Below, piece by piece: positions 13,966 to 63,536 of a stretch of DNA of 64,000 bases (position 1 is its first letter; every line of letters starts with the position of its first letter). Source of the DNA: Candidatus Kapaibacterium sp. GTDB taxonomy: Bacteria > Bacteroidota > Ignavibacteria > Kapaibacteriales > WFXC01. Below the pieces are notes generated by a model that saw nothing but the letters and a program-made list of their open reading frames with translations, ran no database searches and was not told the DNA's origin. The DNA lies in assembly GCA_015490805.1 (NCBI GenBank), contig WFXC01000022.1:1-64000 (forward strand). Reading direction: 5' to 3'. A program made the translations under genes and the position numbers.

Positions 13966-16317
13966 ATGCGTTTCGGCATTTTTTTGCGAATCAGCATAGT
14001 GGGTGTTAGTATCCTGATTAGTGGCAACATTAGCATTCAGGCGCAAGTCCCAACCGTTATAAGCTACCAGGGTATTCTGACCGATGCCAATGGCATTGCG
14101 TTGCCTGATGAAGAGTATGATGTAACCTTTCAGCTCTATGCACAACCGACCGGTGGCGTTGCACTGTGGAGCGAGACACAGCGCGTTCGGATGGAAAAGG
14201 GAGTGTTTAACGTCATTTTAGGCAGTGTCAATGCCCTGAGCGGGGTAGACTTTTCACAACCGCTCTGGCTGGGCATTACCGTTGCGGGACAAGAGGAATT
14301 CCGTCCAAGAGTGCAACTGACGGCTGTTCCGTATAGTTTGATGGCAAAGCACGTGGAGCAGGATGCCATCGGTACTTTTGAGATTGCTGATGGAAGTATT
14401 ACGCTGTCGAAAATCAATACGGAAGGGGCGAGCAAAGGGCAGGTGATGAAATTCGATGGGGATCAGTTAGTTTGGGATTGGGATTTAGCTGTGGCTTTTA
14501 CCCTGCCATTTCAGGATACAGTGGATCTCGCCAACGTTCCTGCTTTCTGGATTGTACAAAAGGGAGTGACACCTGTTGCCCGATTCGAAGCTCGCAATGA
14601 TGGAGCCGGAAGTGTGCTCGAAGTCATCAGTGAAGGTTCGGCACCAGCGATTGAGGTAGAAAATCGTTTCCCGGTCCGTTTCGACGCCAGTGCCATTCGA
14701 GCGGTGAGCGAAGGTATCGCACCGACTATTTATGTCAGCAACACCGGAGATCTGGCTGATGGTTCCGCCATTGTTGCTTATAGCGAGAGTGATCCTCAGA
14801 ACAATGATCCATCAGCAGGTAGTGCAACGATCGTGGCAGCGCATGGAGAGGGATGGGGAGCGGCGATTGAAGCAAGCAGCTTTGGCAAAGGCGGAGCGGC
14901 GGAACTGTATGCGGATACCAGCAGTCGCTCAGTAACGCTTAATGTGGAAAGTTTTTCTCGCTATCACAGTACCGTTGCTCGCTTTGCCTACGGTCCGGTA
15001 GCGGGCAATTATACGCCGAATCAGCCAGTGGTTGAAATCTGGAAAAGGGGATATGCCTCAGATGCATTGCGGGTGATCGATTCTCTGGGCAGTGGATATA
15101 CCGCAGCATTTTATAAACCACTGAATGCTCGAACGGGACAGTTGCGGAACAGCGCAGTGTTGTATGCGGAAGGAGCAACCGATCGGTATTTCGACGCGCC
15201 GATTGCCCAGTTGAAGCAGACAGGGAGTGGCTATGGTTTGATGGTGGATTTGACAGACTCCGGATCCGTGGCTGCGGGTGTTGTAGTGCGGCATCAGGGG
15301 CGGGGAACGGGGATGAAAATCGTCACCGAACGGCTGCGGGAATCGCTCCAAACACCGGACATCGAGGCATCGTTCTATGTGGAGAACCGTTCTCACTCTT
15401 CCAGCCCTGTTGTGTTTGTCCACAATAAATCCAACGGCTCGACAGGTGTGGCGTTAGATGTGCTACAGCGAGGAGGTGGCATTGCGTTGCGAGTGGTACG
15501 AGCTGATACGAGTCGTTCAACTTCCGCAGCTCTTTTTAAGGGATGGACCAACGGCACGCCGGGTTCTGATCCGTACGCTGATGACGCAGTTGTACGTATC
15601 GAATCCGATTACATGGGATTTGTTGCCGGCGTTGCTCTCTCAGTGAAAGGCGGGGTTGTGATGGAAAGTCGTGGGTTTTTCCCGGCGTTGCGCTTGCGCG
15701 CTAATCCGCCAATGATCACTGCTCTGGTAGTTGATACCGGAAGCGTTGAATTTGGCGATGATCTGCAGGTTGATGGTTCGATCAATTCCGATACCCGTAT
15801 AACCGTGGGCGGGGTTGGACTGAACAGTGTTGTTATTCAACGGACTGTTACCCAGTTTCCCGGCGATCTTTCCGTTGGAGGCAACGTGGGGATCAGCGGC
15901 AATTTGACGGTCTCTGGCACCATTACAAAAGGCGGTGGAAGCTTCCGAATCGATCATCCGCTGGATCCTGAGAACAAGTATCTCTACCACTTCTTTGTAG
16001 AAAGTCCTGAGATGAAGAATGTGTACGATGGTATTGCCATATGCGATCAGCACGGGGAGGCAGTTGTCGAACTACCGGAGTGGTTCGAAGCGTTAAACGA
16101 GGACTTCCGGTATCAGCTAACGTGTGTCGGTGGCTATGCGCCGGTGTATATCAAGGAAGAAATTCGAGACAATCGGTTTGTGATTGCTGGAGGAAAACCG
16201 GGATTGAAAGTATCCTGGCAGGTGACCGGTGTTCGAAAGGATAAGTGGGCATTGGAGCATCGAATGCCGATCGAGCAGGAAAAACCCAGAAGTCAACGGA
16301 TGGGGGTGCAACGATGA
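13966..16317 (+). CDS. Secreted surface protein with conserved N-terminal module and long repetitive beta region
   Basis: A 783-residue exported protein. After a signal peptide (to about residue 27, ...ISIQAQ), residues 28-130 form a module common in secreted proteins of this group: VISYQGILTDANG, then a D-E-Y-x-V-T-F-Q-L-Y strand, LWSETQRVRMEKGVFNVILG, and VQLTAVPYSLMA. The body (about 200-690) is low in lysine, rich in Ser/Gly/Val and made of recurring segments (ALRVVRADTSRS, ALRVIDSLGSG, VALDVLQRGGGIALRV) that suggest a stacked beta fibre like a tail fibre or adhesin stalk. The last 120 residues (LYHFFVESPEMKNVYDG ... VVELPEWFEAL) are a distinct globular end. It overlaps the next gene by ATGA. 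Confidence 0.7.
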   Translation: MRFGIFLRISIVGVSILISGNISIQAQVPTVISYQGILTDANGIALPDEEYDVTFQLYAQPTGGVALWSETQRVRMEKGVFNVILGSVNALSGVDFSQPLWLGITVAGQEEFRPRVQLTAVPYSLMAKHVEQDAIGTFEIADGSITLSKINTEGASKGQVMKFDGDQLVWDWDLAVAFTLPFQDTVDLANVPAFWIVQKGVTPVARFEARNDGAGSVLEVISEGSAPAIEVENRFPVRFDASAIRAVSEGIAPTIYVSNTGDLADGSAIVAYSESDPQNNDPSAGSATIVAAHGEGWGAAIEASSFGKGGAAELYADTSSRSVTLNVESFSRYHSTVARFAYGPVAGNYTPNQPVVEIWKRGYASDALRVIDSLGSGYTAAFYKPLNARTGQLRNSAVLYAEGATDRYFDAPIAQLKQTGSGYGLMVDLTDSGSVAAGVVVRHQGRGTGMKIVTERLRESLQTPDIEASFYVENRSHSSSPVVFVHNKSNGSTGVALDVLQRGGGIALRVVRADTSRSTSAALFKGWTNGTPGSDPYADDAVVRIESDYMGFVAGVALSVKGGVVMESRGFFPALRLRANPPMITALVVDTGSVEFGDDLQVDGSINSDTRITVGGVGLNSVVIQRTVTQFPGDLSVGGNVGISGNLTVSGTITKGGGSFRIDHPLDPENKYLYHFFVESPEMKNVYDGIAICDQHGEAVVELPEWFEALNEDFRYQLTCVGGYAPVYIKEEIRDNRFVIAGGKPGLKVSWQVTGVRKDKWALEHRMPIEQEKPRSQRMGVQR

Positions 16318-31094: not shown

Positions 31095-31778
31095 CTATGC
31101 CGGCGCTGTAATTTCAACAATTTCGCCTAAAGCGTATTCGGCGCCGTTGATGCGGAGTTGCGCTCCATTTTCTCCAAAACGAACGGCTTCGATGGTTCCT
31201 CTGGAGAAAATCGTTGTTTGAATCGGGCTGTCATCTCCAGCTCTGGCTTCAATGTCGACAGTGTAAGTTCCTTGAGGCAGGATATTGCCATTGTCATCCC
31301 GTCCATCCCAGGTCAGCCAGTAGGTCCCGGACGGCTGGCTACCCTGGGAGAAGGTGCGGACGACGGTGCCGCTGCTGTCTTTGATACGGACGGTAACGGA
31401 TTTTGCCGGCAAAGCAAGCTGATAGCCAATGCTGGTCGGTGTGCCATTCCAGCCAATGCGGGCGCTTTCGACCGTAGCGAGTTTGCCGATGAGCGATGCT
31501 GCCGAGAGGTTCGTGATGGATTGGCTCAGCACAAGATTCGTCTGGATTTGCTGCTCTAAGAGATTTTTCATCGTGACCAATTGCTCGACCTGTGAAAATT
31601 GGGCAAGCTGGGCGACAAACTGCTCATTATTCATTGGCTCTAAGGGGTTCTGGAGGCGCAGTTGAGCGGTCAGGAGTTTTAAAAACTCTTCTTTGCCCAG
31701 TTGCCGTTCATTGCGTTGTGGAGGGGTCAGATTCACATTGGGAGCGGTCGTCTGCGTTCGGTTGATTGCTTCTGCCAT
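31095..31778 (-). CDS. flgD: Flagellar hook assembly (capping) protein FlgD
   Basis: A 227-residue hook scaffold that caps the growing hook and allows FlgE subunits to add. The N-terminal FlgD motif is clear (FLKLLTAQLRLQNPLEPMNNEQF... QLAQFSQVEQL). The C-terminal half has the FlgD Ig-like/tudor domains (VRIKDSSGTVVRTF, WDGRDDNGNILPQGTYTV). It is the last gene of the flagellar operon, 4 bases after fliK. FlgE itself is not next to it, which is unusual, and must lie elsewhere. Confidence 0.93.
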   Translation of the reverse strand: MAEAINRTQTTAPNVNLTPPQRNERQLGKEEFLKLLTAQLRLQNPLEPMNNEQFVAQLAQFSQVEQLVTMKNLLEQQIQTNLVLSQSITNLSAASLIGKLATVESARIGWNGTPTSIGYQLALPAKSVTVRIKDSSGTVVRTFSQGSQPSGTYWLTWDGRDDNGNILPQGTYTVDIEARAGDDSPIQTTIFSRGTIEAVRFGENGAQLRINGAEYALGEIVEITAPA

Positions 31779-31782
31779 TGCT

Positions 31783-34700
31783 CTATACCTGTTGATCCAC
31801 TTGTTGACTCAGTTCGTACAATGTTGACAACATTTCCAGATATTCGCGCTGGGATTCATACTGCTGATTTCCTGAGTGTGCCATCTGTTGCTGCAAAGAA
31901 TGTTCCAGAATGGTTCGGTGGCCATCTGTCGCCGCCTGCACCGTGACGTCTTGCAGAGAGAGACGATGGGTTGCCAGCGCTTCCCGCAGCAAAGGAAGAC
32001 GCTTTTCAAATGTTTCTTTGACACTTGATTTCTCGACAAATATCCGGAGCGTTACTTGATTGCCCGTGATGGTGATAGCGATGTCGACACTGCCAAGATT
32101 TTCTGGCTGGAGCGTGAACCGGACGCGAGATGTGGGAATGTTCCGCTGCTTCGCTCCAGCGATAAAAGCAGCCAGTAGAGACGGGAGTTGTGCCATTGGT
32201 ACGCGAATTGGTAGAGATGAGGCAGGTGTCGGCATTGGAGTGCCCGCTGGCAAAGATTCGCCCGTATGCGTCACCATACGGGCTTGGGCTGTGATATCCG
32301 TCGCTGAAAGATCTTCGGTGGGCTGTAAGGATAGATCCTGCAAAGCCGTTTCAGAGGCTTCAGCGAAAGAACCAGTTATCAAAGGTGGTGTGACACCAGC
32401 AGTGTTTGGCTGCCGCTGGAAAGAGTGGGAAGCCTGCTGGTGATTGCCTTGCGAGTTAGCATTGTTTCCTCGGTGAGATTGTCGAACCGTACGGAAAGCG
32501 GTTGCAGGGAAGTGATTCGGATATGGTGAATTCGGTGTCCGGATCGATGGCGAAGGTGGTGAGGTCACAACGGTCGGAGCTACTGGGATGTCGGCTGGTG
32601 AAGATGGCGAAAAATGCAGTTTCCCCTGTTGCATTCCCTCAGCCGGTTTTTCACCCGTGCTTGTGAAGGGATCAGTTATGGTAATGGATGGTGAGCTGAT
32701 GGAAAGAACGGGGGTAGATGGGGCAATGCGCATTGTACTCTGGGCGGAGGATGCAGTGGTGACGGTCGGTGGACGGTAGGTGATCGTTGCCGCCGGTGGC
32801 TGGATTGCAAGCCGATGGATAGAAGAACTGGGTGATGCAGAAGGTGTAGAGCCAGTTAGTGAAGATGGCTCCGGCGAGGGTGAGCGATGTTCCAGCGGCG
32901 AAGTGCTAGGCAGTGGCCGCGCTTCGTTTTCTGCTCTGTTCAGTGCTGCAGAAGTCGTTAAATGCGGTGCAGCGGGCTGTGTTTCGGTGATCTGACGGAA
33001 AGAACGGTCAGTAATGGAAGGTTGCTGAATTGTGTCACTCCGCCGCGCTGTACGGGATATGATTTGCTTGCCTATATCGATCGCTGCTTGGCGTAGCACT
33101 GCCATTGAAGCAGAGCGGCGATGCGAAGATTTTTGAGTGCTGCCAGCTTTGTTTTGAGGTGGTACCGTTTTCGGAATGGAGGATGGGCCCGCAACCTTCG
33201 CCTGTTTCGATGCCTGAGCGGCTGAAGAAGTGAGCGATTGCCGGGATTGTTGCAAAGCTTTTCCAGTGTGGACATCCCTGTTGGGACGCAGGCGTTGACC
33301 GTTGTTCGGAATGGAGGGAGCGGCGTTCTCACCCGTGTTTACCCTGTTGGGACGCAGGCGTTGTCCATTACCCGGCGCATACGTGGAGACTGTTGGCAAT
33401 GCCCTTTCGCTGCCGGGAGTTGAATGTAGCCGTGCTTGGAACGCAACACCGGTGGAAAAAGGTGCTTTCTCTGGCAGTATTGGTTGCTGTGGGATAGCGT
33501 CGAAGGTAGCTGCGTTCGAATTGCGCTGCGTTCCTGAGAAGAATGTTACAGATGCAGATAGATCGCTCGGATTTTCCCGTCCGCTGGTGCTGGAAGCTGA
33601 GGATGTCGGCGTGGAACGAAGGAGCACTTGGTGGTGCAGCCGGAGCGAAGGTGAAGCAGGAAAGCGAATTATCTTTGTGGACAGTATTTGCCCTGGTTGG
33701 TACAGCCGGGGAGAAGAGACAGTCAGGGGACGTCGTAGCGTGTGAGAGGAGCGCTGGAGAAGGCTGCTACTCTCAGGGGAAGTTTGGGATAGAGGCACTT
33801 GATGGATAGATGGCTTTTCTACTCTGTTTCTGAAAATGTGCAGAGCCCGGCTGTAGTCAGCAGGCAGAGACTGAGATTGTCGGGACTGGACATAGTGTAA
33901 AGGTGAAACTGACAGCCCCAGAGAGCCGTTGGGCAGCCGCGGGCGCTTCGATGTGAGTAGGACACTTTGTTGTCGTAAGAGTCGGGCAGGTAATGCTGCC
34001 GGGTGATGGTTCAAAACAGGTCGGGGATGGGAGGAAAGACGGCTTATTGCAACAATAGCTGATGCTGATGGAGAGCGAAGATGATGGGAGATTGCTCTAT
34101 GAAGCACAACAGAAGACTTTTTGACTTTCTTCCCTTGTGTTCGGTGAAATCTCAGAAAATCTGATGCGAAGCTTTTTTGAGTTTTTCGCTGCTCTGTCGT
34201 TTCGAGAGATGGGGTGTGGGGGTAAAGGGTACGAGATATCACGTGTTGTTCAGATGAAAAAAGAGGAGCTTGCGCAGTTGTCCGGATAGGTGCAGAGAGG
34301 CGGTAGAGAGCAGGTTGAGCAGCGCTATGCAGATCCGGGGACTGTATAGCAGCGGTGTTGGGGTGTGGCATAGAGACAGTGTTCTGGACAGAATTCGCGG
34401 AGACACCCCGCGACAATGGCGGGTGTTGTGCGCTATGTAAACGGTCTTGTGCCCGGAGCACCTGACCTGTTTGGAGCAGCGATTGGGTCCGCTTGTGCCC
34501 GACTTGCGGACGAATCTTTGAGCCGTTCCAGCGTGGTGGAATACGGTTGGCAACTGGAGATTGCTGAGCGCCATCTGTCTCAGGTTGGGGAGAGCGCACA
34601 GATGGTGGAGGTGTATGAGATTGGGTAACATTCTTTAGCGAAATAGTTGGCTGGGAACGTGTGGCGGGGTTGAGGATCTGAGTGGGAAGTGGCTGCATTC

Positions 34701-37700
34701 GTTCGGAGGTAGCGTGTGAAAGGAGCTTCTTTAATGAGCTTGATACCGGGCGAATAGGGATACGATGTATGGACGATGATTCCGGAGTGTCCGGAGAGGA
34801 AGCGTGTGGTTGTTTCTTGAAGCTGGGCAGCAAGTGAGAAAATGATGGTTGCCTGCGCCGGATTGGTGCGGGATGTAATGGAAGCTTGTTGGCGGTTGTT
34901 TGAGCACCAGAGAGCGGAAGATTGTCCGGGCGTTTGGAGCCAGCAGTGGTGATTGGTGCACCTGGACGCTCGTGGTGTCTCGATCCTGTTTTGCCCGATT
35001 GCTGAGTGGATTGGATCGGGACGGAGCGGTGTTTGAGAGCGAGGGCAAAAGAACGCGCTGCTGGAATTGCTGGTGATCCAATCGCCGCAGATTGCAGAGA
35101 TGTTAACGGTGAATGTCGGGGTGGTGCTGAAACGGGCGATTCCGTCCAGACTCGGGATACAGGCGTGTTACTGGAAGGTGCTTTACTGTGCTGGATGTCG
35201 CCCTGAGGGGGTCGAACAATTAGTGGGTTCGCTCTAAGGGGTGTTGGTTGAGCATCCAGGAGATTTTCCCCATTATGACGGTCGAAACGAACCTGAGTTC
35301 GAGAAGGTATGGAAGCTCGAAGTTGTCGCTGGACATTGGCGCTGGGTGGTGGTGGAGTGCGTAATGATGCTGCCGTATGCCGTTGGTTTGACGAAGGTTG
35401 CAGACGCTGGATCGGGAGCGTTTCAGCAGAGGAAAAGTAGGTTTGTTGCGCTTTCCCATTGGAAGCATTGGGGCGGTTCTCCATAGCTGCTGGAAGCAGT
35501 TCTGGTGATAATCTGACCGCTCGCTGTTGGTGCAGCAGTTGTCGGGAGGAATTGGAAAAGTGACGACGTTCCTGTGGGTGAGTGTGGAGCGGATGAGATC
35601 GCCCTTTTGGGATAGCAATCGTAGTTGCCGGTGTGCTGGTATTGGGAGTTGGGGCCGAGGAGCGATCTCCTAGCTGCCCGAAGGTTGGTGACGGAGACGC
35701 AGTGCTTTTCGCTGGGGTCTTTGGAGAAGCTGGGAGGAATTGATGGCGTCTGGCAGCGGTTGCTGCTTCTTTGCGACCGGCGAGGATCAGATTTCTGCGA
35801 TCAGAAAGATTGTTTCGCGTTGTGGTGGTCAAGAAGAGAGATTTTTCAGCTTGCGAGCGGGAAGCAGGTTCTGGTGCCGTTGCTTCGGCTGAAAGCTTTC
35901 TCGTAGCGAGAGTTTGTAGCCTAGACCCAGGGGGCAGATGACTGGAACGAAGTTTTTGTCTGGTTTCTGGTGTAAAGTTTGAACGTCTCGATACCTGTAG
36001 CCGATGCACAGCGCGGGTTCGGTGATCCTGCTGCTGCGACCGCTGTCGGGTAGTGAAAGCAACGGATGGAACGTGATCTTGCAGAGTCCTTTCGATTCGT
36101 TCAATCCGTTGCCGGGTAGCGAAAACAGCAGGTGAAAGAGGCTGTGGAGCTGTCAGCAGATTTTTTGCTCCATAGGGACGTGCTGGACTACCCGTGGATG
36201 GAAGCTGTGAGGTTCTCAGGAAGTGGCGGAGAGGAACGTGCTGAGTGCGTGGTTGCTGGTGGGCAGTCCCTAGAAAACCGGGAGAATCCGTGGGAGTCTG
36301 AGCTGAGATGATCTCCTGTTGCCCCCGCTGCTGGTGTGCACTGGTAGTCTCTACTATCGACCGGGACGGCTGGATAGTCGAAACGCTGTGGTATGGGTTA
36401 GCCAGACTGCGGGAGAAACGAGGATAAATTGAGAGCGTTTCTGGTGAAGAAGGAAGCTGACGACGGCGCTGCCGGTGCATTCCCTGATGCGGTGTGGGCA
36501 TTGCCCGTCTTGTCGGGATAGCAAAAAACTGTTCGGTGGCACTGGCATCAGAGCGTAGCAAGTGTGCAGCCGGGGACGAAGTAGACTGGATCGGTGGTAG
36601 CGGAGCTGGATCCAGATGGGTCCGGTGATGCTGCAACCCGGGGCGTGAAAGGGAGCGCGGGGATCCAGAGATTTTATGGTTAAAGCGCAGGCTGGCACGG
36701 GTATGGTTGGGAGACACTTTCGGTGCAGTGGACAAATGGTTGTCAGTGGGTATCGGTGCAGCAGCAATGCGAGTCGTGGATAACCCTGGCTTGTTTCGCT
36801 TTTGGGAGAAGGGGTTTGCTGTTGGCAACCTTCGGGATGCCCGAGAAGAGTGAGACGGTAAGGGCTGAGCGATGGAGCGTTGAGAGGGCGCAGGAGGCCG
36901 AAATTCCTCTGGCGTCCGGAGGTAGTGCCCGCGGCGGAACTTCAGAGAGGCAGGTGTCCGGAAATGCGGTGTTCGATTGCTGCGTTGTGGCACTATGCTG
37001 CCCTTGAAACGCTGCGAAGGATACCATTGGTTTGCGTTTCCACGGTGTGCAGGCTGAGCAACTGGTTGTGGTGGTATAGCGAGGGGAAAGTCTGTTTGCT
37101 GCTGCTGGAGAAGCCGGTTTGCCAGGAAAGTCCTTTTCCACGATGTCCCGAAGAGCTCAGGTCGATGCTGTCGCAGGAGGCGTGCCGCGGCTGACTGCAG
37201 CAGTGGATGGTTGGCGCGACGGGATGGTACGTCTCGAAGATCGGGTGATGCTGAGTGGGAAGTTGCAGGATGCTGGGAAATAGCGGAAGAGGGGGAAAAA
37301 ATGGCGATATGGTGTGAATTCACAGCCTGCTGAGAGTGGAGCGCCAGAGGTGCTGGACGTGGTGCTGAGAAAGATGACACTGTGGAAGCACCCGCTGAAA
37401 GCGACTTGAGAGTCTGCTCAACCTGCGATACCGATGGCGCTTTCACGAGAATTGTTCGTTGAGACACGGGGTTCACGAATAAAATTTCTACGTCTGTTGC
37501 CTGATAGCGCTGAAGCAGATGCAGTAGATCTGTAAGTGGACGCCAGCGCTGCGCAGAGGGGGAATTTGATGATGTGAAGGGTAAAAGGAAGCTCTGTCGC
37601 CGGGGTGATGAGTTCGGTGAGGAATGTTGTCCGGGGACCGAATTGGTGGACACCGTTGCCTGAATACCGATCGGGACGGTGCGGGTCAGGGCTATCAACA

Positions 37701-38511
37701 ATGGTTGATCCAGCGGCTTCTGGGTCAGCGTCAGGGTATGATCCGGCGATGTGAAGTGTTTTTGCAGTTCCGATCCGTCGATGGTTGAACGCAAGAGCTC
37801 GGTGGGGACAAATAAGGAGGGAACAACAGCAGGTGCTGCGCTGGTAGCAGTAGGTGCTGTTGCGAGTTTTGGAGAATGAGCGGGAATAATGCTAGACGTT
37901 GAAGATGAAGGTGAATACAGCAGTGAATCTGGAGAGAAAGACCGAGCGTCTGATGGTTTCTCTATTGCCCGATTCGTGTCTCGTGGCGATAGAAGGGATG
38001 GGTTCTGCGGAACTGTTACTGAAGAGGTCTGCGTGTTCTGAGCGGGGTGTTTTGGCACCGCGATGGCGGAATCTTGTGGTGATGGAGAAAGAGGAGTGGC
38101 GGCACCGCTGGATTGAATCCTGGGGGAAAGGCGTTGCGATGCATCAGAAGCTATGGTGTGGATTTGACTGCCGGATTGGTTGGTATTCGCTGGAAAAGAC
38201 GGGGATGTATCGGTGCTTGTTGCGGATGCTGGTGGCGTTGAAGGAGCATTTGCTGAGCGGTCACCTTTTGGGGGGAAGGTCGACGGAGATTGAAGAGGAG
38301 GTATGGAAGGAACACTGGTGGCAGAAGGCGTGTGGGATCCGGGAACTACTGGTTGTTGAGAAGAAGCAGCGATAGAACGCTGAAGGAGTTTCTTCTGGAG
38401 CAGTGATCGAAAAACAGTCGCAGCAGCGGACAGTTTCCGCCCTTTCGATGCTCCAGATGGCTGGAGTGCACCCCGTACAACGAGCCAGGAATGGAACGTT
38501 TTAATGCTCAC
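31783..38511 (-). CDS. fliK: Giant FliK-type flagellar hook-length control protein
   Basis: A single uninterrupted frame of 2242 codons (GTG start; AGGA 9 bases upstream). Only the last 150 residues or so are recognisable: the Flg_hook domain of FliK near 2090-2200 (RVRFTLQPENLGSVDIAI, VTLRIFVEKSSVKETFEKRLPLLREAL), which switches the export gate from hook to filament substrates by contacting FlhB. The preceding 2080 or so residues are a low-complexity, probably disordered tract very rich in Ser, Pro, Gln, Arg, His and Thr, with almost no Cys or Trp. Typical FliK proteins have about 400-500 residues. The position between the MotE-like gene and flgD is the normal fliK position. How the long tract relates to hook length is unknown. 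Confidence 0.88.
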   Translation of the reverse strand: MSIKTFHSWLVVRGALQPSGASKGRKLSAAATVFRSLLQKKLLQRSIAASSQQPVVPGSHTPSATSVPSIPPLQSPSTFPPKGDRSANAPSTPPASATSTDTSPSFPANTNQSGSQIHTIASDASQRLSPRIQSSGAATPLSPSPQDSAIAVPKHPAQNTQTSSVTVPQNPSLLSPRDTNRAIEKPSDARSFSPDSLLYSPSSSTSSIIPAHSPKLATAPTATSAAPAVVPSLFVPTELLRSTIDGSELQKHFTSPDHTLTLTQKPLDQPLLIALTRTVPIGIQATVSTNSVPGQHSSPNSSPRRQSFLLPFTSSNSPSAQRWRPLTDLLHLLQRYQATDVEILFVNPVSQRTILVKAPSVSQVEQTLKSLSAGASTVSSFSAPRPAPLALHSQQAVNSHHIAIFSPSSAISQHPATSHSASPDLRDVPSRRANHPLLQSAAARLLRQHRPELFGTSWKRTFLANRLLQQQQTDFPLAIPPQPVAQPAHRGNANQWYPSQRFKGSIVPQRSNRTPHFRTPASLKFRRGHYLRTPEEFRPPAPSQRSIAQPLPSHSSRASRRLPTANPFSQKRNKPGLSTTRIAAAPIPTDNHLSTAPKVSPNHTRASLRFNHKISGSPRSLSRPGLQHHRTHLDPAPLPPIQSTSSPAAHLLRSDASATEQFFAIPTRRAMPTPHQGMHRQRRRQLPSSPETLSIYPRFSRSLANPYHSVSTIQPSRSIVETTSAHQQRGQQEIISAQTPTDSPGFLGTAHQQPRTQHVPLRHFLRTSQLPSTGSPARPYGAKNLLTAPQPLSPAVFATRQRIERIERTLQDHVPSVAFTTRQRSQQQDHRTRAVHRLQVSRRSNFTPETRQKLRSSHLPPGSRLQTLATRKLSAEATAPEPASRSQAEKSLFLTTTTRNNLSDRRNLILAGRKEAATAARRHQFLPASPKTPAKSTASPSPTFGQLGDRSSAPTPNTSTPATTIAIPKGRSHPLHTHPQERRHFSNSSRQLLHQQRAVRLSPELLPAAMENRPNASNGKAQQTYFSSAETLPIQRLQPSSNQRHTAASLRTPPPPSANVQRQLRASIPSRTQVRFDRHNGENLLDAQPTPLRANPLIVRPPQGDIQHSKAPSSNTPVSRVWTESPVSAPPRHSPLTSLQSAAIGSPAIPAARSFALALKHRSVPIQSTQQSGKTGSRHHERPGAPITTAGSKRPDNLPLSGAQTTANKLPLHPAPIRRRQPSFSHLLPSFKKQPHASSPDTPESSSIHRIPIRPVSSSLKKLLSHATSERMQPLPTQILNPATRSQPTISLKNVTQSHTPPPSVRSPQPETDGAQQSPVANRIPPRWNGSKIRPQVGHKRTQSLLQTGQVLRAQDRLHSAQHPPLSRGVSANSVQNTVSMPHPNTAAIQSPDLHSAAQPALYRLSAPIRTTAQAPLFSSEQHVISRTLYPHTPSLETTEQRKTQKSFASDFLRFHRTQGKKVKKSSVVLHRAISHHLRSPSASAIVAISRLSSHPRPVLNHHPAALPARLLRQQSVLLTSKRPRLPNGSLGLSVSPLHYVQSRQSQSLPADYSRALHIFRNRVEKPSIHQVPLSQTSPESSSLLQRSSHTLRRPLTVSSPRLYQPGQILSTKIIRFPASPSLRLHHQVLLRSTPTSSASSTSGRENPSDLSASVTFFSGTQRNSNAATFDAIPQQPILPEKAPFSTGVAFQARLHSTPGSERALPTVSTYAPGNGQRLRPNRVNTGENAAPSIPNNGQRLRPNRDVHTGKALQQSRQSLTSSAAQASKQAKVAGPSSIPKTVPPQNKAGSTQKSSHRRSASMAVLRQAAIDIGKQIISRTARRSDTIQQPSITDRSFRQITETQPAAPHLTTSAALNRAENEARPLPSTSPLEHRSPSPEPSSLTGSTPSASPSSSIHRLAIQPPAATITYRPPTVTTASSAQSTMRIAPSTPVLSISSPSITITDPFTSTGEKPAEGMQQGKLHFSPSSPADIPVAPTVVTSPPSPSIRTPNSPYPNHFPATAFRTVRQSHRGNNANSQGNHQQASHSFQRQPNTAGVTPPLITGSFAEASETALQDLSLQPTEDLSATDITAQARMVTHTGESLPAGTPMPTPASSLPIRVPMAQLPSLLAAFIAGAKQRNIPTSRVRFTLQPENLGSVDIAITITGNQVTLRIFVEKSSVKETFEKRLPLLREALATHRLSLQDVTVQAATDGHRTILEHSLQQQMAHSGNQQYESQREYLEMLSTLYELSQQVDQQV
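33276..33363 (-). repeat. 66-bp-period direct repeat inside fliK
   Basis: A 22-base block (CCCTGTTGGGACGCAGGCGT plus TG on the + strand) occurs at 33276-33297 and again at 33342-33363, exactly 66 bases (22 codons) apart. It encodes the NGQRLRPNR motif twice. It shows that at least part of the long fliK tract grew by in-frame duplication. Confidence 0.9.
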
Positions 38512-38548
38512 CCTTCTGCATCCTGCAGATCATACATCCTGTTTGTTG

Positions 38549-39106
38549 CTATGGAAGCGTCGTGCTGAGCGCCAGAATTCTGGCAGCACGTTCGGGATCC
38601 ATAGCACCCAGGACCTTGGCTGCCTGTTTTTGATCCATTAGCAGCAAGATCTCTGCAGCATCTTTATCGTCCAAATTCGCTAGAATTTTAGCAACATCTT
38701 CAGGATTTGCCTGGTTGTAGATTTGCGCAAATTGCCTTTTGGTTGCTAAGATCAAAGAATCAGCCTGAAACAACTGTTGCAGTTGTCGGAGAGAATCCTG
38801 CCGTTGGTAGGTAAGGATGATGGTTTGTAGGCTGTCTTTCTGGGAGCGCAACCGGACAGTGGTATCCTGACAGGCAGCGATCAGGGCTGATAGAGAATCT
38901 TGCTGATGCTGGAGTACCTGCTGGAGTGAATCGATTTTTTGCTGCATCAGCACAAGCGTATCCACCACCTGTGTTGAGTCCTGCACAGGGCGGGGAAGTC
39001 CAAGATATTCTGGATGGTGCTGCATAACCCAGATCAATCCTCCCAGCAGCGCTACGAAGCTGAAGGAGAAGAAAATGATCAAGCCGATGACCAGCCGCGG
39101 ACTCAT
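38549..39106 (-). CDS. MotE-like membrane-anchored flagellar protein (MgtE_N-type domain)
   Basis: A 185-residue protein with one N-terminal membrane helix (LVIGLIIFFSFSFVALLGGLIW), a coiled coil (about 50-120, rich in Gln/Leu/Ser) and a C-terminal helical repeat (NQANPEDVAKILANLDDKDA ... MDPERAARILALS) of the MgtE N-terminal/FliG-like type. This layout and the place between fliJ and fliK match the MotE family; in Sinorhizobium MotE chaperones periplasmic MotC. Whether it serves the motor or the export apparatus here is not known. Its ATG shares one base with the fliJ stop (TAATG). Confidence 0.8.
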   Translation of the reverse strand: MSPRLVIGLIIFFSFSFVALLGGLIWVMQHHPEYLGLPRPVQDSTQVVDTLVLMQQKIDSLQQVLQHQQDSLSALIAACQDTTVRLRSQKDSLQTIILTYQRQDSLRQLQQLFQADSLILATKRQFAQIYNQANPEDVAKILANLDDKDAAEILLLMDQKQAAKVLGAMDPERAARILALSTTLP

Positions 39107-39555
39107 TACTCTGTGGATTTATTGTGCGAGTGTCGGCGCTGGCTGATCTCGTCCATTTGTTTCTCTTCCTGCTGCTGGAGCAGGTGCTGATATTCCTGCT
39201 GTTTCCGTTCCTTGAGCTTTTCCAGACTACGCTGCCGCTGGAGTGCTGCCGTGAGTTGCTGTCGGCAGTGTGTTTCCTGATCCACGAGGTACTGATAATG
39301 CTGCTCCAGGGTATCCAGCTCAATCTGGAGCCGGCGCAGATAGTGCCATCGTGTTTCCAGTTCGTGGATAGAATGAGGACGCTGTTTTTCAAATTGGCCG
39401 GCTTCCGTTTCCAGACGCTGACGGTAGTGCAATAGTTGGTGTTCCACCTCGGCTTTGCGTTGCAAGATAGCAGCCAATTCACGTTGGAGACGATCAACTT
39501 CGTGCGTCCGAATCTTTAGCAGGGTTGCCAGCCGAAACTGGAACTTTTTCGCCAT
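39106..39555 (-). CDS. fliJ: Flagellar export protein FliJ
   Basis: A 149-residue, almost wholly coiled-coil protein. It begins KKFQFRLATLLKIRTHEVDRLQRELA, the FliJ signature, and forms the stalk in the centre of the FliI ATPase ring, linking it to FlhA. It is Gln/Arg/Leu-rich. It lies about 40 bases after fliI and overlaps the MotE-like gene by one base. Confidence 0.88.
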   Translation of the reverse strand: MAKKFQFRLATLLKIRTHEVDRLQRELAAILQRKAEVEHQLLHYRQRLETEAGQFEKQRPHSIHELETRWHYLRRLQIELDTLEQHYQYLVDQETHCRQQLTAALQRQRSLEKLKERKQQEYQHLLQQQEEKQMDEISQRRHSHNKSTE

Positions 39556-39593: not shown

Positions 39594-40946
39594 TTAAGCA
39601 TTCTGTGCTAATTGGAGAAGGGCCTGGATGGTCTGGTCGAAGGAAAAGCTCTCGTTCATTTGTTGCCGCAGGAACTGTTCAATGGCAGGTTTTTTTTGTA
39701 CTGCTACATCCAGGTCGGGATTTTGTCCCTGTTTATAGGCACCCACGCTCAGCAGGTCTTCTGCTTCCTGGTAGCGTGACCACCATTCTTTGACACGTTG
39801 TGCCGCTTGCAGATGGGGTGGAGAAGCAATGTCTGGCATAATGCGGCTGACACTTTCCAGAATGTCGATAGCGGGATAATGTCCGCGGGTTGCCAATTTT
39901 CGCGAGAGCACGATGTGCCCGTCCAGGATACCGCGGGCAGCGTCTGAAATTGGTTCGTTGAGATCGTCGCCTTCTACCAGTACGGTATACAGCCCGGTGA
40001 TTGTTCCCCGGTCGCTGGTGCCTGCCCGTTCCATCAGCTTGGGAAGCAGGGCAAACACAGACGGCGTGTAGCCTTTGGTCGTTGGGGGTTCTCCAATGGC
40101 TAAACCGACTTCCCGTTGCGCCATTGCAAAGCGAGTGACGGAGTCAATCATCAGCAGCACATCCAGTCCCAGGTCGCGGTAGAATTCGGCGATAGTTGTG
40201 GCGACGAAAGCCGCTTTAATTCGCAGTAAGGGTGGTTGGTCGCTGGTTGCAACGACCAGCACGGACCGCGCTAATCCCTCAGCACCCAGATCTCGCTCGA
40301 TGAATTCCCGAACCTCGCGTCCCCGCTCGCCGATCAATCCAATCACGTTGACATCTGCGGCTGCATTGCGAGCGATCATTCCCATCAGCACCGATTTTCC
40401 CACCCCCGAACCGGAGAAAATCCCTACCCGTTGCCCTTTACCCAGGGTAAGCAAACCATCGATGGCTTTAATACCCGTGGCAAAAGGATGCCGGATTCGC
40501 TGCCGAAGAATGGGGTTGGGGGGAGGAGCATAGATACTGCGGTAGGCTTCTATAGGGGGCATTGGTTTTCCGTCCATTGGCTCTCCCAAGCCATTCAGGA
40601 TGCGGCCCAACAATCCTTCACCAACACCGACCTGCAGCTTTGTCCCCGTGGCTGCAATTTTGGTCTCCGGCGCAATTTCTGTTGTGTCGCCCAGGACCAT
40701 CGAGAGAATGCGATTGTCCTGGAACCCAACAACTTCTGCTTTCCCGATTTCTTTTCCGGATTTATCAGTGAGAATGCACACTTCCCCAATGGAAGCAGGA
40801 GGTCCTTCGCTTTCAAGGACCAATCCGACAACTTTGGTAACTTTGCCGACGGCGCGAAAAGCCGGTCCCGTTGGCAGGAAAGCGCGGTACTTCTGGACTA
40901 CTGTTTCGGCGTTGAATTCCGGCGGCGATGATGAAGAACGGTTCAT
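39594..40946 (-). CDS. fliI: Flagellum-specific ATPase FliI
   Basis: A 450-residue export ATPase related to F1-beta. Walker A is GSGVGKS at residues 179-185; then LIGERGREVREFIERDLG, Walker B VLLMIDSVTRFAMAQREVGLAIGEPP, and TVLVEGDDLNEPISDAARGILDGHIVLSR, all diagnostic of FliI/YscN-type ATPases. The flagellar context separates it from type III secretion. It unfolds or presents substrates to the FlhA/FlhB gate encoded at the right end of the window. The gene begins 11 bases after fliH. Confidence 0.96.
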   Translation of the reverse strand: MNRSSSSPPEFNAETVVQKYRAFLPTGPAFRAVGKVTKVVGLVLESEGPPASIGEVCILTDKSGKEIGKAEVVGFQDNRILSMVLGDTTEIAPETKIAATGTKLQVGVGEGLLGRILNGLGEPMDGKPMPPIEAYRSIYAPPPNPILRQRIRHPFATGIKAIDGLLTLGKGQRVGIFSGSGVGKSVLMGMIARNAAADVNVIGLIGERGREVREFIERDLGAEGLARSVLVVATSDQPPLLRIKAAFVATTIAEFYRDLGLDVLLMIDSVTRFAMAQREVGLAIGEPPTTKGYTPSVFALLPKLMERAGTSDRGTITGLYTVLVEGDDLNEPISDAARGILDGHIVLSRKLATRGHYPAIDILESVSRIMPDIASPPHLQAAQRVKEWWSRYQEAEDLLSVGAYKQGQNPDLDVAVQKKPAIEQFLRQQMNESFSFDQTIQALLQLAQNA

Positions 40947-40957
40947 CGCAGCTCCTC

Positions 40958-41656
40958 TTAAGTTGTTGCCGCCTGTTGCAGTCGCTGCCGGATTTGCGCT
41001 AATTGCGTGGAAAGTTGTGCGTCGATGGCGCCCAGCGGGGTTTCGATAATGCAGCCGCCACGTTCAATGCGCTCGTCAGGAATCAGCGTGATGTTCCGCA
41101 CTTCACCCGGAGCAAAAAGTTGCGACTGTGCCTGCTGCAACGCCTCGATATCCTGAGGATTCAGTCGGATCGTAAGCTCTTCGAAGACAGGAAATTCACG
41201 GAAAACTGCCTGGATTTGTCGAATGATGAGTTGAATCTGTTCTTCTTGCAATTTTTCCTGCAAAATGGTTTCCGCAATGGCGATAGCTAAATCTACCACA
41301 GCTTTTTCCAGTTCAGATTGGAGTTTCTGGAATTGCTGTTGGATGGAAAGGAGAAGCTGGTCGACGGAACGAATGTGTTCTTCCGCTGCTTGCAACTCTC
41401 GCTGAAACGTGCGGCTGGCGACTTCACGCCCATCATTAAATCCTTGGTCGTATGCCGCTTTGAGCTGCGCCTTTAGTTCTTCTTCCGTTAAAGTCACAGT
41501 TGCTGGCTCGGCAGGGGTTTCCGAAGAAGCGTCTGCTGGCTCTTCCGGTTCTTGATCGAAGGATTCAAATTCGTAGGGCACTGCTTCTGGGGCTACTTCT
41601 TCCCGATAGATCGTGATATTTCGGGTTTTGACCGGTACTCGCACTCGAACTGGCAT
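40958..41656 (-). CDS. fliH: Flagellar assembly protein FliH
   Basis: A 232-residue regulator and stator of FliI. It has an acidic, poorly conserved N-terminus (about 20-60, rich in Glu/Pro/Ala), a coiled coil starting around AAYDQGFNDGREVASRTF, and the conserved V-ATPase-E-like C-terminal domain (ETILQEKLQEEQIQLIIRQI ... DERIERGGCIIETPLGAIDA). The GG-C-I-I-E-T block is the FliH/YscL hallmark. It lies between fliG and fliI as usual. Confidence 0.9.
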   Translation of the reverse strand: MPVRVRVPVKTRNITIYREEVAPEAVPYEFESFDQEPEEPADASSETPAEPATVTLTEEELKAQLKAAYDQGFNDGREVASRTFQRELQAAEEHIRSVDQLLLSIQQQFQKLQSELEKAVVDLAIAIAETILQEKLQEEQIQLIIRQIQAVFREFPVFEELTIRLNPQDIEALQQAQSQLFAPGEVRNITLIPDERIERGGCIIETPLGAIDAQLSTQLAQIRQRLQQAATT

Positions 41657-41670
41657 AGGCTCATTGCTGT

Positions 41671-42702
41671 TTAGACAAACACTTCTTCAGCACCACCGCG
41701 GCCACTGATGGTAATCTCTTCCCGCTCTTCCAATTGTTTGATAATTTCCACGATACGGGCTTGCGCTGCTTCCACGTCTTTCAGGCGCACTGGACCCATA
41801 AACTCCAGTTCTTCCTTGATTGTCTGGGCAGCCCGCTCTGACATATTCTTGAAGATTTTCTCCTTGACTTTTTCGCTGGCAACTTTGAGTGCCAGTGCCA
41901 GATCCTTCTTGTCCACCTCCCGGAGAATTCGCTGAACACCTCGATCGTCGATGAGTACGATGTCTTCAAACAGGAACATTTTCTTGCTGATTTCATCTGC
42001 CAGTTGGGGATTCTTAGAAGCGATGTAATCCATAATCATTTTTGTCTGCGAAGAGCTCATCCGGTTGAGAATGCTGGCAACAACTTCCGAGCCACCCTGG
42101 ACCGCGGCGCTTTGAGACAATGTGGCTTCAGCAACTCGTTCAACAACCTGCTCAATTTGCTCAATCAAATGCGGGGAAACCTTGCCCATCGTAGCGATTC
42201 GCATGATGACATCAGCGCGGAACTCGTCATCGAATTCCTCCAGAATGGCAGCTGTCTGGTCGGCAGGGAGGTGGGAAAGGATGAGCGCAACAATTTGAGG
42301 ATGTTCTTTGCTTAAGAAGCTGGCGATTTGTACCGGATCTGCTTCTTTCAAAATGTCAAATCCCCGAATAGTGGTCAATGCTCGAATTTTTTCGATGATT
42401 TCTCGCGCTCGCTCGGGACCAAAGGTTTTTTCCAGCAGTTGCTGCGCATATTCTAAGCCGCCCTCAATGTAGAATCGCTGGGCAGTCATCAACTGGTAAA
42501 ATTCCTCAACGACCTGATCGATCACCTCTGCCCGAACCCCTTGTAGGTTGGCAATTTCCACTGCAATAGCCTCAACATCTTGCGGATCCAGATGGTGGAA
42601 GATTTTGGCTGCGGTTTCAATGTCTAAGGTCATCAGCAAGATGGCGACTTTTTGTCGTTCGGTCAGTTCCTGATATGTGATGGTTTCGCCAATGGTTGGC
42701 AT
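41671..42702 (-). CDS. fliG: Flagellar motor switch protein FliG
   Basis: A 343-residue rotor protein that joins the MS ring (FliF) to FliM and interacts with the stator. The N-terminal (LTERQKVAILLMTLDIETAAKIF), middle (EHPQIVALILSHLPADQTAAIL, with the EHPQ motif) and C-terminal torque domain (FLFEDIVLIDDRGVQRILREVDKKDLALALK, charged helix) are all present. The length is typical. There is a 104-base gap to fliF upstream that shows no separate promoter I can support. Confidence 0.96.
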   Translation of the reverse strand: MPTIGETITYQELTERQKVAILLMTLDIETAAKIFHHLDPQDVEAIAVEIANLQGVRAEVIDQVVEEFYQLMTAQRFYIEGGLEYAQQLLEKTFGPERAREIIEKIRALTTIRGFDILKEADPVQIASFLSKEHPQIVALILSHLPADQTAAILEEFDDEFRADVIMRIATMGKVSPHLIEQIEQVVERVAEATLSQSAAVQGGSEVVASILNRMSSSQTKMIMDYIASKNPQLADEISKKMFLFEDIVLIDDRGVQRILREVDKKDLALALKVASEKVKEKIFKNMSERAAQTIKEELEFMGPVRLKDVEAAQARIVEIIKQLEEREEITISGRGGAEEVFV

Positions 42703-42806: not shown

Positions 42807-44447
42807 TTACTTGCCTTTCCGTAACATTGATCGCAACAACCGTGCTGCTTCTTCCGGTTGTTCCGTCAGGAATTTTTGCACCTGTTTGTGCATTTCTTGC
42901 CGTAGGAGTTCTTCCGGTGTTTGTTCGATTTGCTCAACCATTTCCAGCAACTCTGGACGCTCTTCCGGTCCCGGCAGCGCCGGAACTTCTAATTCCCGGC
43001 TTAAGGTTTCCAGCAATGCCTTTTGCCGCTCCGCCACTGCCTTCATCAATTCCATTCGCTGCTTTTCAATATCTGTTGGCAGCATCAATACCTCCAGCCG
43101 TTTTTTCACAATAGGAGAGTGGAGAAAACGCCAGACAGCGATCAGTGCTAACAGCATCATCAGAACAAGGAGCACTTTTTCTGCAATTTCTTCCGGTGCC
43201 ATCGGTGCTGCCGTCGGCGGAGCTTCTTTCATTGTTTCAAATTCAACACTCACGACGGAGATTCGATCATTCCGATTGGGATCGAAACCAACAGCGTTAC
43301 GGATGATTTGCTCCAATTGCTGTAATTCTTCTTCTGATCGTGGAACATATTCAACCACTTGAGTTCCATCCTCCAAAGTTTGGGTTTGCGGTTTCCCGTT
43401 GATCAATGCTGAAACGGTAAGGCGTTTGATGCGCCCGACTTCTCCAATGATGCGGCGAATTTCTTTTGAGATTTCATAGTTGGTGATCGTGTTGGTCCGG
43501 GCTGATTGACTGTTCACCGCAGGATAATTCAATGAATCCTGCGATTGGCTTTGTTCACTGATCGTTTGTTCACTGCGAACCACCTGTCCGGCTGGGTCAT
43601 AGCGCTCAACCGTTTCTTGGGTTTGTGTAAAGTCCAGCTCAGCATTTACCTGCACCACAGCGTTACCAACGCCCAGAACCTGATCCAGTAGGGATTGCAC
43701 CTTTCGGGTAAGGTAATTGTCGACTTTTTCTTTGATTTCATACTGAGAGGCAGTGAGCCCGCCAAAACCCTGCTGATCGGCGGTTTCTGATAACACGCGT
43801 CCACGGTTGTCGATGACAGTGACGTTGTCAGGACTGAGTCCTTCAACACTACTGGCAACCAGAAACTGGATGGCTTCGACAGAGCGTTGACGGAGTGATC
43901 GATTTGGTTTCAGTTTCACTACAACGGAAGCCGTGGGCTCTTCTTGCTGCGCTTCAAAAAGGCGACGTTCGGGGATGACCAGGTGAACCCGCGCTTTTTC
44001 TACTTCATCCAGGCTGGCAATAGTGCGCGCCAGTTCTCCTTCCAGTGCCCGTCGGTAGTTCAACTTCTGGACAAACTCCGACATTCCCAAGTTGGTTTTG
44101 TCGAAGATTTCATAACCAACTGTGCTGCTTGCCGGGAGTCCTTCTTGTGCCAGTTCCAATCGCAGCTTGTAAAGCTCGTTTCGGGGCACCAGAATAGTCT
44201 TGCCATTGTCTTCCAGTTCATAAGGGATTTGGTTCTCATCCAGTTTCTCCGTGATCTTCGCTGCATCAGTAGCAGAAAGATCCGTAAAGAGCACTGCCAT
44301 CTGCGGTTGAGGAGCAGAGAGGAGTAACCAAAGAAGTCCGCCAATGGTGCCAGCAGCAACGGCAATGAGCAGCGTTTTTTGCAGACCTGTAAGACGGGAC
44401 CAAAAGTCCCGGAGTTGCTTCCAGATTTGTTGTAGTGTGCTTGGCAT
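42807..44447 (-). CDS. fliF: Flagellar MS-ring protein FliF
   Basis: A 546-residue membrane ring protein. Helix 1 is near residues 22-42 (TLLIAVAAGTIGGLLWLLL) and helix 2 near 415-440 (KVLLVLMMLLALIAVWRFL). Between them are the ring-building motifs (ILVPRNELYKLRLELAQEGLP, RRALEGELARTIASLDEVEKARVHLVIPE, VTVIDNRGRVLS). The cytoplasmic C-terminus (EEAARLLRSMLRKGK) is the FliG-binding tail. It anchors the operon's rotor and export genes. Confidence 0.96.
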   Translation of the reverse strand: MPSTLQQIWKQLRDFWSRLTGLQKTLLIAVAAGTIGGLLWLLLSAPQPQMAVLFTDLSATDAAKITEKLDENQIPYELEDNGKTILVPRNELYKLRLELAQEGLPASSTVGYEIFDKTNLGMSEFVQKLNYRRALEGELARTIASLDEVEKARVHLVIPERRLFEAQQEEPTASVVVKLKPNRSLRQRSVEAIQFLVASSVEGLSPDNVTVIDNRGRVLSETADQQGFGGLTASQYEIKEKVDNYLTRKVQSLLDQVLGVGNAVVQVNAELDFTQTQETVERYDPAGQVVRSEQTISEQSQSQDSLNYPAVNSQSARTNTITNYEISKEIRRIIGEVGRIKRLTVSALINGKPQTQTLEDGTQVVEYVPRSEEELQQLEQIIRNAVGFDPNRNDRISVVSVEFETMKEAPPTAAPMAPEEIAEKVLLVLMMLLALIAVWRFLHSPIVKKRLEVLMLPTDIEKQRMELMKAVAERQKALLETLSRELEVPALPGPEERPELLEMVEQIEQTPEELLRQEMHKQVQKFLTEQPEEAARLLRSMLRKGK

Positions 44448-44462
44448 CAGGTGCTACAGTGA

Positions 44463-44780
44463 TTACACTTGGATTCGTATGATTTCACGGTACAGGTCAA
44501 TAGCGCGGTTGCGGATTTCTAACAAAAGCTCCATACTAACTTTTGCTTTTTCAGCAGCAATCATTACGTCGTGGAGCTGGACAGGTTCGCCAGCAATAAA
44601 TTTTTCGGCTTGCTGTGCGGCTGTTTTCTGAAGCGTATTAACATCGGAAAGGAATTCCTTCAGGGTTGCTGCAAAAGTTTGTCCCTCAGGCGCCGTCGAT
44701 TGTTGCTGCGTGCGTTGCTGGATGGCCGGTAAATATTGCTGTTGCGCTAAGATCTCAGCGATCGTCATTGCTCTATCCAT
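44463..44780 (-). CDS. fliE: Flagellar hook-basal body protein FliE
   Basis: A 105-residue adaptor between the MS ring and the rod, and the first substrate of the export gate. The conserved part is at the C-terminus (SDVNTLQKTAAQQAEKFIAGEP... LHDVMIAAEKAKVSMELLLEIRNRAIDLYREIIRIQV). It ends 15 bases before fliF and starts directly after an unidentified 100-codon gene. Confidence 0.93.
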   Translation of the reverse strand: MDRAMTIAEILAQQQYLPAIQQRTQQQSTAPEGQTFAATLKEFLSDVNTLQKTAAQQAEKFIAGEPVQLHDVMIAAEKAKVSMELLLEIRNRAIDLYREIIRIQV

Positions 44781-45094: not shown

Positions 45095-45580
45095 TTAGAT
45101 TTCTATTGCTTCACGTGCAATGTTTTTCGTTGCCGTTAGTACGGCAGTATTTGCCTGAAACCCGCGCTCAGCCGCAATCATTTCTACCATCTCGGTCACA
45201 ATGTTCACATTGGGATAAGCAACGTATCCCTCAGCATTGGCGTCCGGATGCGTTGGGTCGTATACCAGTCGGGGTGGAGAGGCGTCTTTTGCGATACGGG
45301 AACGGAGTGTTAAATCTGCTTGCTGATCGCGCTGTTGCGTCCAGAAGTCGTTGAAATGCCCGGATCGCGAGGTGACCAGGGCAATCTGGGTTTTGAGATG
45401 TTCCATAAATGGCTGAGGTTCAATCGCACGCACGATGACAACTTCTCGCCGATACGGTCCGCCATTTTGTGTTTTCGTTACCTCTGCGTTGGCAATGTTT
45501 TTCGCAACCGTTTTGAGCCGCAGCCGCTGAACTGAGAGTCCTTGTCCCGAAATATGAAAGATCGAAAAGATGTTGTCCAT
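45095..45580 (-). CDS. flgC: Flagellar basal-body rod protein FlgC
   Basis: A 161-residue proximal rod subunit. The N-terminal helix (FSIFHISGQGLSVQRLRLKTVAKNIANAEV) and the C-terminal helix (YPNVNIVTEMVEMIAAERGFQANTAVLTATK) are the rod/hook family signatures that pack in the D0 domain. A YPNVNIVTEM motif marks FlgC rather than FlgB, FlgF or FlgG. It lies 18 bases after flgB. Confidence 0.95.
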   Translation of the reverse strand: MDNIFSIFHISGQGLSVQRLRLKTVAKNIANAEVTKTQNGGPYRREVVIVRAIEPQPFMEHLKTQIALVTSRSGHFNDFWTQQRDQQADLTLRSRIAKDASPPRLVYDPTHPDANAEGYVAYPNVNIVTEMVEMIAAERGFQANTAVLTATKNIAREAIEI

Positions 45581-62449: not shown

Positions 62450-63532
62450 TTATGATGCCCTGCGCTGTGTGTAAACGTATGCTAAGACTTCGGCAACTGC
62501 TCGATAAAGAGATTCAGGAATCATCTCATCGATGTCCACCAGTTTATACAAAGTCTGTGCCAGCGGCGGATTGTGGACAATAGGCACCTTTGCCGATCGA
62601 GCAAGCTCAATAATTTTGAGTGCCAGGTAGTCAACCCCTTTCGCTACGACAATAGGAGCATCCATTGTGTCGGCTTTGTACTGGAGGGCAACCGCATAGT
62701 GCGTCGGGTTGGTAATCACCACATCGGCTTCCTTGACCCGTTGTAAAATCAATTTCCGCAACCGCTCGCGTGCCAGCGCCCGAAGTCGCGCCTTGATTTT
62801 GACATCGCCCTCCATTTGCTTCATTTCATCCTTGACTTCCTGCTTTGTCATTTTGAGATCTTCCCGGTACTGGTACTTCTGGAAAGCATAATCTCCGATG
62901 GCAATGAGGATGTAGGCGATGGCAACTTTATAGGTCAGTTCAAAGGCAATGTCAAACATAAAAGTGGCAATTTGCGACATCGGCAGTGAGGGTAGCAGAA
63001 TAAACTGCTCAATCTGTCCCGATAACACCCAGTACATCACTCCCATAATGATCCCCATTTTGAAGAAGCTTTTGAGCAGTTCTACCACGGTTCGTTTGGA
63101 AAAGAATAACCGTCGAAGTCCCGGCAACGGGTTGATGAACTTTTTGAAGTCGAGACCAGCAGTAAATTTTTTTGTCGCAATTTTGAGTCCAACCTGTGCA
63201 ACTTCGCCAGTGAAAGCGACCAGGAAGATGATGAGAAGGATGGGCAAGATGGTTGCAGAGAGGAACACGAGGAGATCACCTCCGAAGCGTAACAATTGGT
63301 CGATGGTACTCAGTTGCAGCTCGGTTGCGATGCGAAAGATGGAGCGGAACAAAGTCTTGAGGTTGTCGGTGAGGAAGTCACCGAAGAGGAAGAGCGTTAA
63401 AGTGCCCAGCAATAGAACAAGAGCCGAGGTTGTATCGATACTTTTGGCAACTTGTCCTCGCTCACGCGCTTCTTCCAGCCGTTTTGGCGTCGGCTCTTCA
63501 GTTTTCTCCTGGCCTTCCGGATTCTCTGCCAT
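62450..63532 (-). CDS. flhB: Flagellar export gate protein FlhB
   Basis: A 360-residue export-gate protein that sets substrate specificity. It has four membrane helices (about 35-55, 90-112, 145-165, 185-210) and the self-cleaving motif NPTH (N275 in DVVITNPTHYAVALQYK), followed by the FlhB-C domain (PIVVAKGVDYLALKIIELA). FliK switches this protein from hook to filament export, which matters here because fliK is giant. ATG 63532 has AGGA 7 bases upstream; a GTG at 63535 is the alternative. Confidence 0.95.
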   Translation of the reverse strand: MAENPEGQEKTEEPTPKRLEEARERGQVAKSIDTTSALVLLLGTLTLFLFGDFLTDNLKTLFRSIFRIATELQLSTIDQLLRFGGDLLVFLSATILPILLIIFLVAFTGEVAQVGLKIATKKFTAGLDFKKFINPLPGLRRLFFSKRTVVELLKSFFKMGIIMGVMYWVLSGQIEQFILLPSLPMSQIATFMFDIAFELTYKVAIAYILIAIGDYAFQKYQYREDLKMTKQEVKDEMKQMEGDVKIKARLRALARERLRKLILQRVKEADVVITNPTHYAVALQYKADTMDAPIVVAKGVDYLALKIIELARSAKVPIVHNPPLAQTLYKLVDIDEMIPESLYRAVAEVLAYVYTQRRAS

Positions 63533-63536
63533 CACT

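Follow-up and report, generated by a model that had tools for sequence, protein, structure and literature searches.

How a secreted protein measures an extracellular structure is central to understanding the assembly of flagella and injectisomes. In Salmonella enterica, FliK (405 aa) combines an N-terminal export region, a disordered ruler/linker stretch and a C-terminal core (FliK_C), in which Val302 and Ile304 contact or lie close to FlhB (PMC6972891). Salmonella FliK variants of 363-785 aa produced hooks of 42-135 nm, with hook length increasing linearly by 0.2 nm per residue (PMC6126814), and a model has been described for FliK in which the protein is secreted from time to time as the hook grows, a length-proportional ruler is coupled with a pause of the chain at full hook length that lets the switch domain act on FlhB, and secretion rate matters for switching (PMC13344023). 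The ruler model rests largely on this engineered FliK-YscP series, which reaches 785 residues. SctP rulers (e.g., YscP and PscP) share the switch-domain fold and the ruler principle, but control the needle rather than the hook. Ordinary FliK proteins of Ignavibacteria/Kapabacteria, the class that includes the genome studied here, have 340-700 aa and are encoded at a ylxF-fliK-flgD locus. The natural series of FliK proteins of about 340-2414 residues in one order, the Kapaibacteriales, would make it possible to test stretched length against timing as well as the limits of a ruler.

The window analyzed here comprises 64,000 nucleotides (positions 1 to 64,000 of contig WFXC01000022.1) from Candidatus Kapaibacterium sp.; its genome (G000; 2.67 Mb in 48 contigs) also encodes a Por_Secre_tail protein. 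The best named relatives of its FliI include 'Candidatus Kapaibacterium' as well as unclassified Bacteroidetes and Ignavibacteria, which points to a Kapabacteria-type order of the Bacteroidota as GTDB defines them. In this window, fliK is a single open frame of 2242 codons on the minus strand (31783-38511), which begins with GTG at 38511 and which is supported by a Pfam Flg_hook match (E=5.1e-16) and by an orthologue of 2216 aa in a congener. The product is thus about 5.5 times longer than FliK of Salmonella enterica, with an extra 1800 Ser/Pro/Arg-rich residues and a different C-terminal end, and three to six times longer than the ordinary FliK proteins of its own class; its operon position, by contrast, is the familiar one. 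The hook cap gene flgD (31095-31778; Pfam FlgD, FlgD_ig, and FlgD_tudor) lies directly downstream, and a gene for an MgtE_N-like protein (38549-39106; Pfam MgtE_N, E=3e-9) occupies a YlxF/MotE-like position upstream. Beyond it are fliJ (39106-39555), the export ATPase gene fliI (39594-40946), fliH (40958-41656), fliG (41671-42702), fliF (42807-44447), and fliE (44463-44780), all assigned by Pfam, as well as a gene for an FlgC-like rod protein (45095-45580; Flg_bbr_C), all on the minus strand. The resulting order, fliG-H-I-J-ylxF-fliK-flgD, places fliK between a ylxF-like gene and flgD, as in most relatives examined, and the order from fliE to flgD is that of the Bacillus fla/che operon. Also on the minus strand, flhA (60266-62446; Pfam FHIPEP, E=1e-264) encodes the export gate and flhB (62450-63535), with an NPTH self-cleavage site at residue 276, the switch partner of FliK; both are ordinary, as an earlier note on this DNA had held. 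Genes for FlgE (456 aa), FlgK, an FlgL-like protein, two flagellins, an FlgF/G-like protein, and FlgI are found elsewhere in the genome, and the flagellum looks genetically complete as far as its gene set was tested. Assignment of the giant protein as an SctP injectisome ruler was rejected; there is no injectisome context (needle, secretin), and the neighbors are flagellar. Elsewhere in the window, a 783-codon frame (13966-16317) without a Pfam match is located between the genes for a glycosyltransferase and a Laminin_G_3 protein.

Several lines of evidence indicate that the giant frame is a real, translated coding sequence and not an assembly error. The remaining five frames over the same DNA contain 42 and 49 stops on the same strand and 72-104 on the opposite strand. 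Local GC skew is strong (0.27-0.34), but the C fraction by codon position is 0.38, 0.42, and 0.26 for positions 1, 2, and 3, respectively; since C is enriched at the first two positions and not at the third, the skew is an effect at the protein rather than the DNA level. No internal Met occurs before residue 671; the GTG start is preceded, nine bases upstream, by AGGA (38521-38524, minus strand), which by its resemblance to the consensus is a possible ribosome-binding site, and the N-terminus is kept in the congener. This congener (G002), represented by an independent assembly, has the same frame with 2216 aa, 64% identity, and 17 in-frame indels, while the frame of a second congener (G001) encodes 2041 aa before it is interrupted by a contig end. 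Given these independent copies with in-frame indels, the codon-position composition, and an ω below 1, we consider it extremely unlikely that the frame is an assembly or gene-calling artefact, such as a fusion of separate frames or a long frame arising spuriously from the skew of the DNA, even though fragmentation of the window's own assembly into 48 contigs could be taken to favor this explanation. The earlier note had described an uninterrupted 6.7-kb frame in the fliK position, without its strand, and had allowed for a discontinuous frame or for separate short fliK genes at this locus in close relatives; the frame is as described, the congener carries it as one continuous frame, and no separate short fliK genes are present at the locus in close relatives.

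Sequence searches and structure models together firmly identify the giant protein as FliK. PF02120 (Flg_hook) matched residues 2121-2197 (31921-32151, minus strand) above the cut-off, the domain that had already been recognized at the end of the frame; it was the only Pfam match in the protein, and searches of NCBIfam and PHROGs yielded no match. Searched as a single sequence, the protein had one match in the PDB, to the C-terminal domain of FliK (2rrl, E=1e-4), and a profile of 20 relatives matched the same structure with E=1.6e-15. AF2 without an alignment predicted a folded switch core (block-mean pLDDT about 79-90), for which the top two Foldseek matches were 2rrl (E=3e-7) and the substrate-switch domain of PscP (5cuk, E=7e-5). 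In the alignment to 2rrl, both Salmonella switch residues in strand β2 are kept, Val302 as V2142 and Ile304 as I2144 (32080-32088, minus strand). The C-terminal tail that follows the core (residues 2198-2242; 31786-31920, minus strand) ends in SQQVDQQV or SQQVDQEV in the window's genus and does not have the (E/F)xYA end of many relatives; as FliK of genus g9, which ends in FQSQR or FNTNR, also lacks this end, xYA is frequent among relatives but not a defining FliK feature.

At the other end of the protein, helices are predicted for residues 3-14 and 26-48 (AF2 pLDDT about 47-66), and the region from residue 3 to residue 48 (38368-38505, minus strand), with non-polar WLVV at 9-12 and FRSLL at 34-38, is a candidate type III export signal. 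These two motifs resemble the hydrophobic signal and the gate recognition motif found in substrates that are exported early, although their spacing is slightly below the 26 residues reported for FlgD (PMC8983047). An FxxΦΦ motif starting at residues 33-46 was found in 14 of 17 full-length relatives, which are not independent of each other, as compared to 1.1% of tract windows. Giant FliK is presumably secreted.

Between the two ends lies a tract of about 2050 residues (50-2100; 32212-38364, minus strand), which composition, pLDDT, and dN/dS mark as a low-structure, Ser/Pro/Ala/Thr/Arg/Gln-rich candidate ruler. The whole protein contains 14.4% Ser, 11.5% Pro, 9.6% Ala, 8.7% Leu, 8.6% Thr, 8.5% Arg, 7.8% Gln, and 4.1% His, and the tract is basic (K+R 11.5%, D+E 4.3%). 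By composition measures the tract scores as less ordered than FlgD, FliI, FliG, and FlhA. Single-sequence AF2 models covered the first 400 residues and the C-terminal part, with residues 401-2021 outside the models; 312 of the first 400 residues, including most of 50-320, had pLDDT below 50. The view that the tract is mostly of low predicted structure is thus supported, and the disordered, low-complexity character that had been ascribed to it agrees with both composition and pLDDT, as a prediction modeled for the first 400 residues. TRF found no tandem repeats in the window copy of fliK, and self-BLAST with 60-residue pieces yielded six weak matches as compared to 0-2 in shuffled sequences, which may at most represent decayed duplications.

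Comparison across genomes marks giant FliK as a lineage trait within the order, with occurrences in at least four families. Flg_hook matches were found in 72 of 122 genomes of the order, and 11 genomes, including the window's own, have a frame of 1600 codons or more and belong to families f1, f4, f8, and f9; these giant frames span 1600-2414 codons and occur alongside relatives of 340-700. Some of these families also include short or intermediate FliK, with lengths of 489 and 1732 within f4 and of 1138-2215 within f9; as the FliI tree leaves the branching among families unresolved, gains and losses of giant FliK are uncountable. Across the class, the median was about 694 codons among 150 frames listed, some of them cut by contig ends, and 12 of the 150 reached 1600. 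The control sets were samples, with Pseudomonadota outside the survey; the longest frame was 1372 codons among the matches listed for Desulfobacterota (138 genomes with matches), 961 among 150 matches listed for Bacillota, and 1086 among frames with a Flg_hook match in 38 mixed named genomes. The 400-500 residues that the earlier note gave as usual for FliK are therefore not typical of this class, and its wording "this cell" was too narrow. A literature search of open-access papers turned up neither giant FliK nor long hooks for this group, and no imaged hook of the order.

The tract evolves under much weaker constraint than its surroundings. Between the window's genome and congener G002, dN was 0.246 and dS 0.397 for the tract (ω about 0.62), whereas the C-terminus of FliK had a dN of 0.073, and FliI, FlgD, the YlxF-like protein, and FliJ had dN of 0.008-0.020 at dS of 0.26-0.45 (ω 0.03-0.06; e.g., FliI with dN 0.014 and dS 0.449 and FlgD with dN 0.008 and dS 0.287); the protein sequence of the tract thus evolves about 12-30 times faster than its neighbors. 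The reading frame is thus kept while the tract is nearly unconstrained in sequence, as would be predicted for a spacer. Across genera, alignment is confined to the ends of FliK, with no tract sequence in common, and composition shifts from basic Ser/Pro/Arg to acidic Asn/Ser/Lys/Glu-rich or Ala-rich. The tracts of several relatives contain recent tandem arrays, and those scoring above 100 have periods of 18, 36, 66, 87, 126, 159, 180, and 252 bases, all divisible by 3; in-frame arrays include a 159-base unit repeated 6.1 times in G050 (L050:4467-7787), a 180-base unit repeated 2.8 times in G018 (L039:5153-10672), and a 252-base unit repeated 2.8 times in G010 (L042:5877-12374). These arrays indicate that in relatives the tract lengthens by in-frame tandem duplication. 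The fliK frames of G024 (L033:1-290) and G011 (L038:15419-15494) stop at contig ends inside repeats with an 18-base period (PVVDxK and KPEQA units), so that their 408 and 471 codons (for G011 and G024, respectively) are minimum lengths; short-read assemblies probably tend to break at fliK, which may lead to an under-count of giant FliK. Length-stabilizing selection was not detected in a test for which only genus g1 offered reliable alignments and in which low-identity pairs were limited by alignment; in most pairs, net length change was at least that of a random walk given the summed indel sizes. FliK length varies by about 1-7% within genera g1 and g9, while two members of one genus with closely related FliI (G025 and G057) have FliK lengths that are 252 residues apart.

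We consider it probable that the giant protein is the hook-length control FliK with a vastly enlarged ruler, a longer tract giving a longer hook. Under this model, FliK would be secreted at intervals through the rod and hook while these grow; so long as the stretched tract exceeds the hook in length, the switch domain would pass FlhB too fast to act, and once hook length equals tract length, it would pause at FlhB and flip export from hook to filament proteins, such that a longer tract would yield a longer hook. In-frame tandem duplication, together with deletion and fast substitution, would make the tract grow and shrink, and ruler length would hence vary several-fold among related genera. 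Extrapolated from Salmonella scaling, the tract is best read as giving an exceptionally long hook; a value of 0.2 nm per residue would predict about 422 nm for this FliK and 310-457 nm for the remaining giants, while the unfolded contour value of 0.35 nm per residue (PMC8983047) would give about 700 nm for a fully extended tract. The extrapolation reaches almost five times as far as any extension tested, and goes from helical inserts in proteins of no more than 785 aa, artificial constructs that resemble giant FliK in combining a longer ruler with a retained switch domain, to a Pro-rich chain that may not extend equally. We see about an even chance that, in several lineages of the order, hooks of roughly 0.3-0.45 μm are built with FliK rulers of about 1700-2400 residues, with a mainly disordered ruler working far beyond the tested range. 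Hooks that do reach 0.4 μm would make the universal joint a linkage of far greater length and flexibility, with consequences for swimming, and we know of no comparably long, flexible hook linkage.

Alternatively, the ruler rule may break down at such a length. A working FliK switch could also operate with a tract that is mostly slack, through coiling, fast secretion, or an effect on timing only, in which case the hook would not be proportionally long and tract length would drift near-neutrally. This is the main rival to the enlarged ruler and a serious one, given that no length selection was found and that the gap of 252 residues within one genus would be odd if hook length were tightly important. 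The contrast in ω between tract and neighbors, the several-fold differences in FliK length within families, and the importance of secretion rate for switching (PMC13344023) also agree with slack. The linear lengthening of Salmonella hooks over 363-785 aa, the far stronger constraint on the switch domain than on the tract, the retained N-terminal motif, and the stability of length within g1 and g9 argue against it, and we regard a slack tract as possible but on the whole doubtful.

Salmonella releases secreted FliK, and a tract that is basic and Ser/Pro/Thr-rich in the window's genus might, once outside the cell, have a second job around the flagellum, such as a matrix, sheath, lubricant, or adhesin; the earlier note had proposed a matrix, sheath, or adhesin. 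We found no positive support for such a role and judge it quite improbable, as equally long tracts elsewhere are acidic and Asn/Lys/Glu-rich or Ala-rich, so that genera have the FliK ends in common but neither the sequence nor the composition of the tract, and as neither an adhesin or carbohydrate-binding domain (Pfam, NCBIfam) nor repeats were found in the window copy. The genome also encodes a 411-aa paralogue with a weak Flg_hook match of 31 bits (contig C12:70892-71119; L051:9339-10574, minus strand), which is conserved in the genus and could be the true ruler if the giant gene were decayed or had a different function. However, it lies close to a HIT-family gene and not within a flagellar operon, it does not have the N-terminal motif, and it appears hydrophobic and folded rather than spacer-like; second, weaker Flg_hook matches are common in flagellated genomes, including those of Desulfobacterota and Bacillota, and the giant gene keeps both its frame and a constrained switch domain, all of which makes this explanation highly improbable.

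One feature of the tract counts against the enlarged ruler, as one would not expect it in a pure spacer, namely a genus-specific, possibly folded patch at residues 305-375 (37387-37599, minus strand), which is kept within the genus and for which AF2 predicts helix-strand-strand-helix elements at low confidence (pLDDT about 35-68). No convincing homologue of this patch was found, and Foldseek with the low-confidence N-terminal model gave no significant match. Tract patches were also compared by hhalign as potential degenerate copies of the switch domain, an idea that was rejected as the matches were unconvincing; the top-scoring pair, both from family f9, reached E=0.006. Other genera carry different conserved tract patches, at residues 195-260 and 1730-1765 in G010 and at residues 640-680 in G025.
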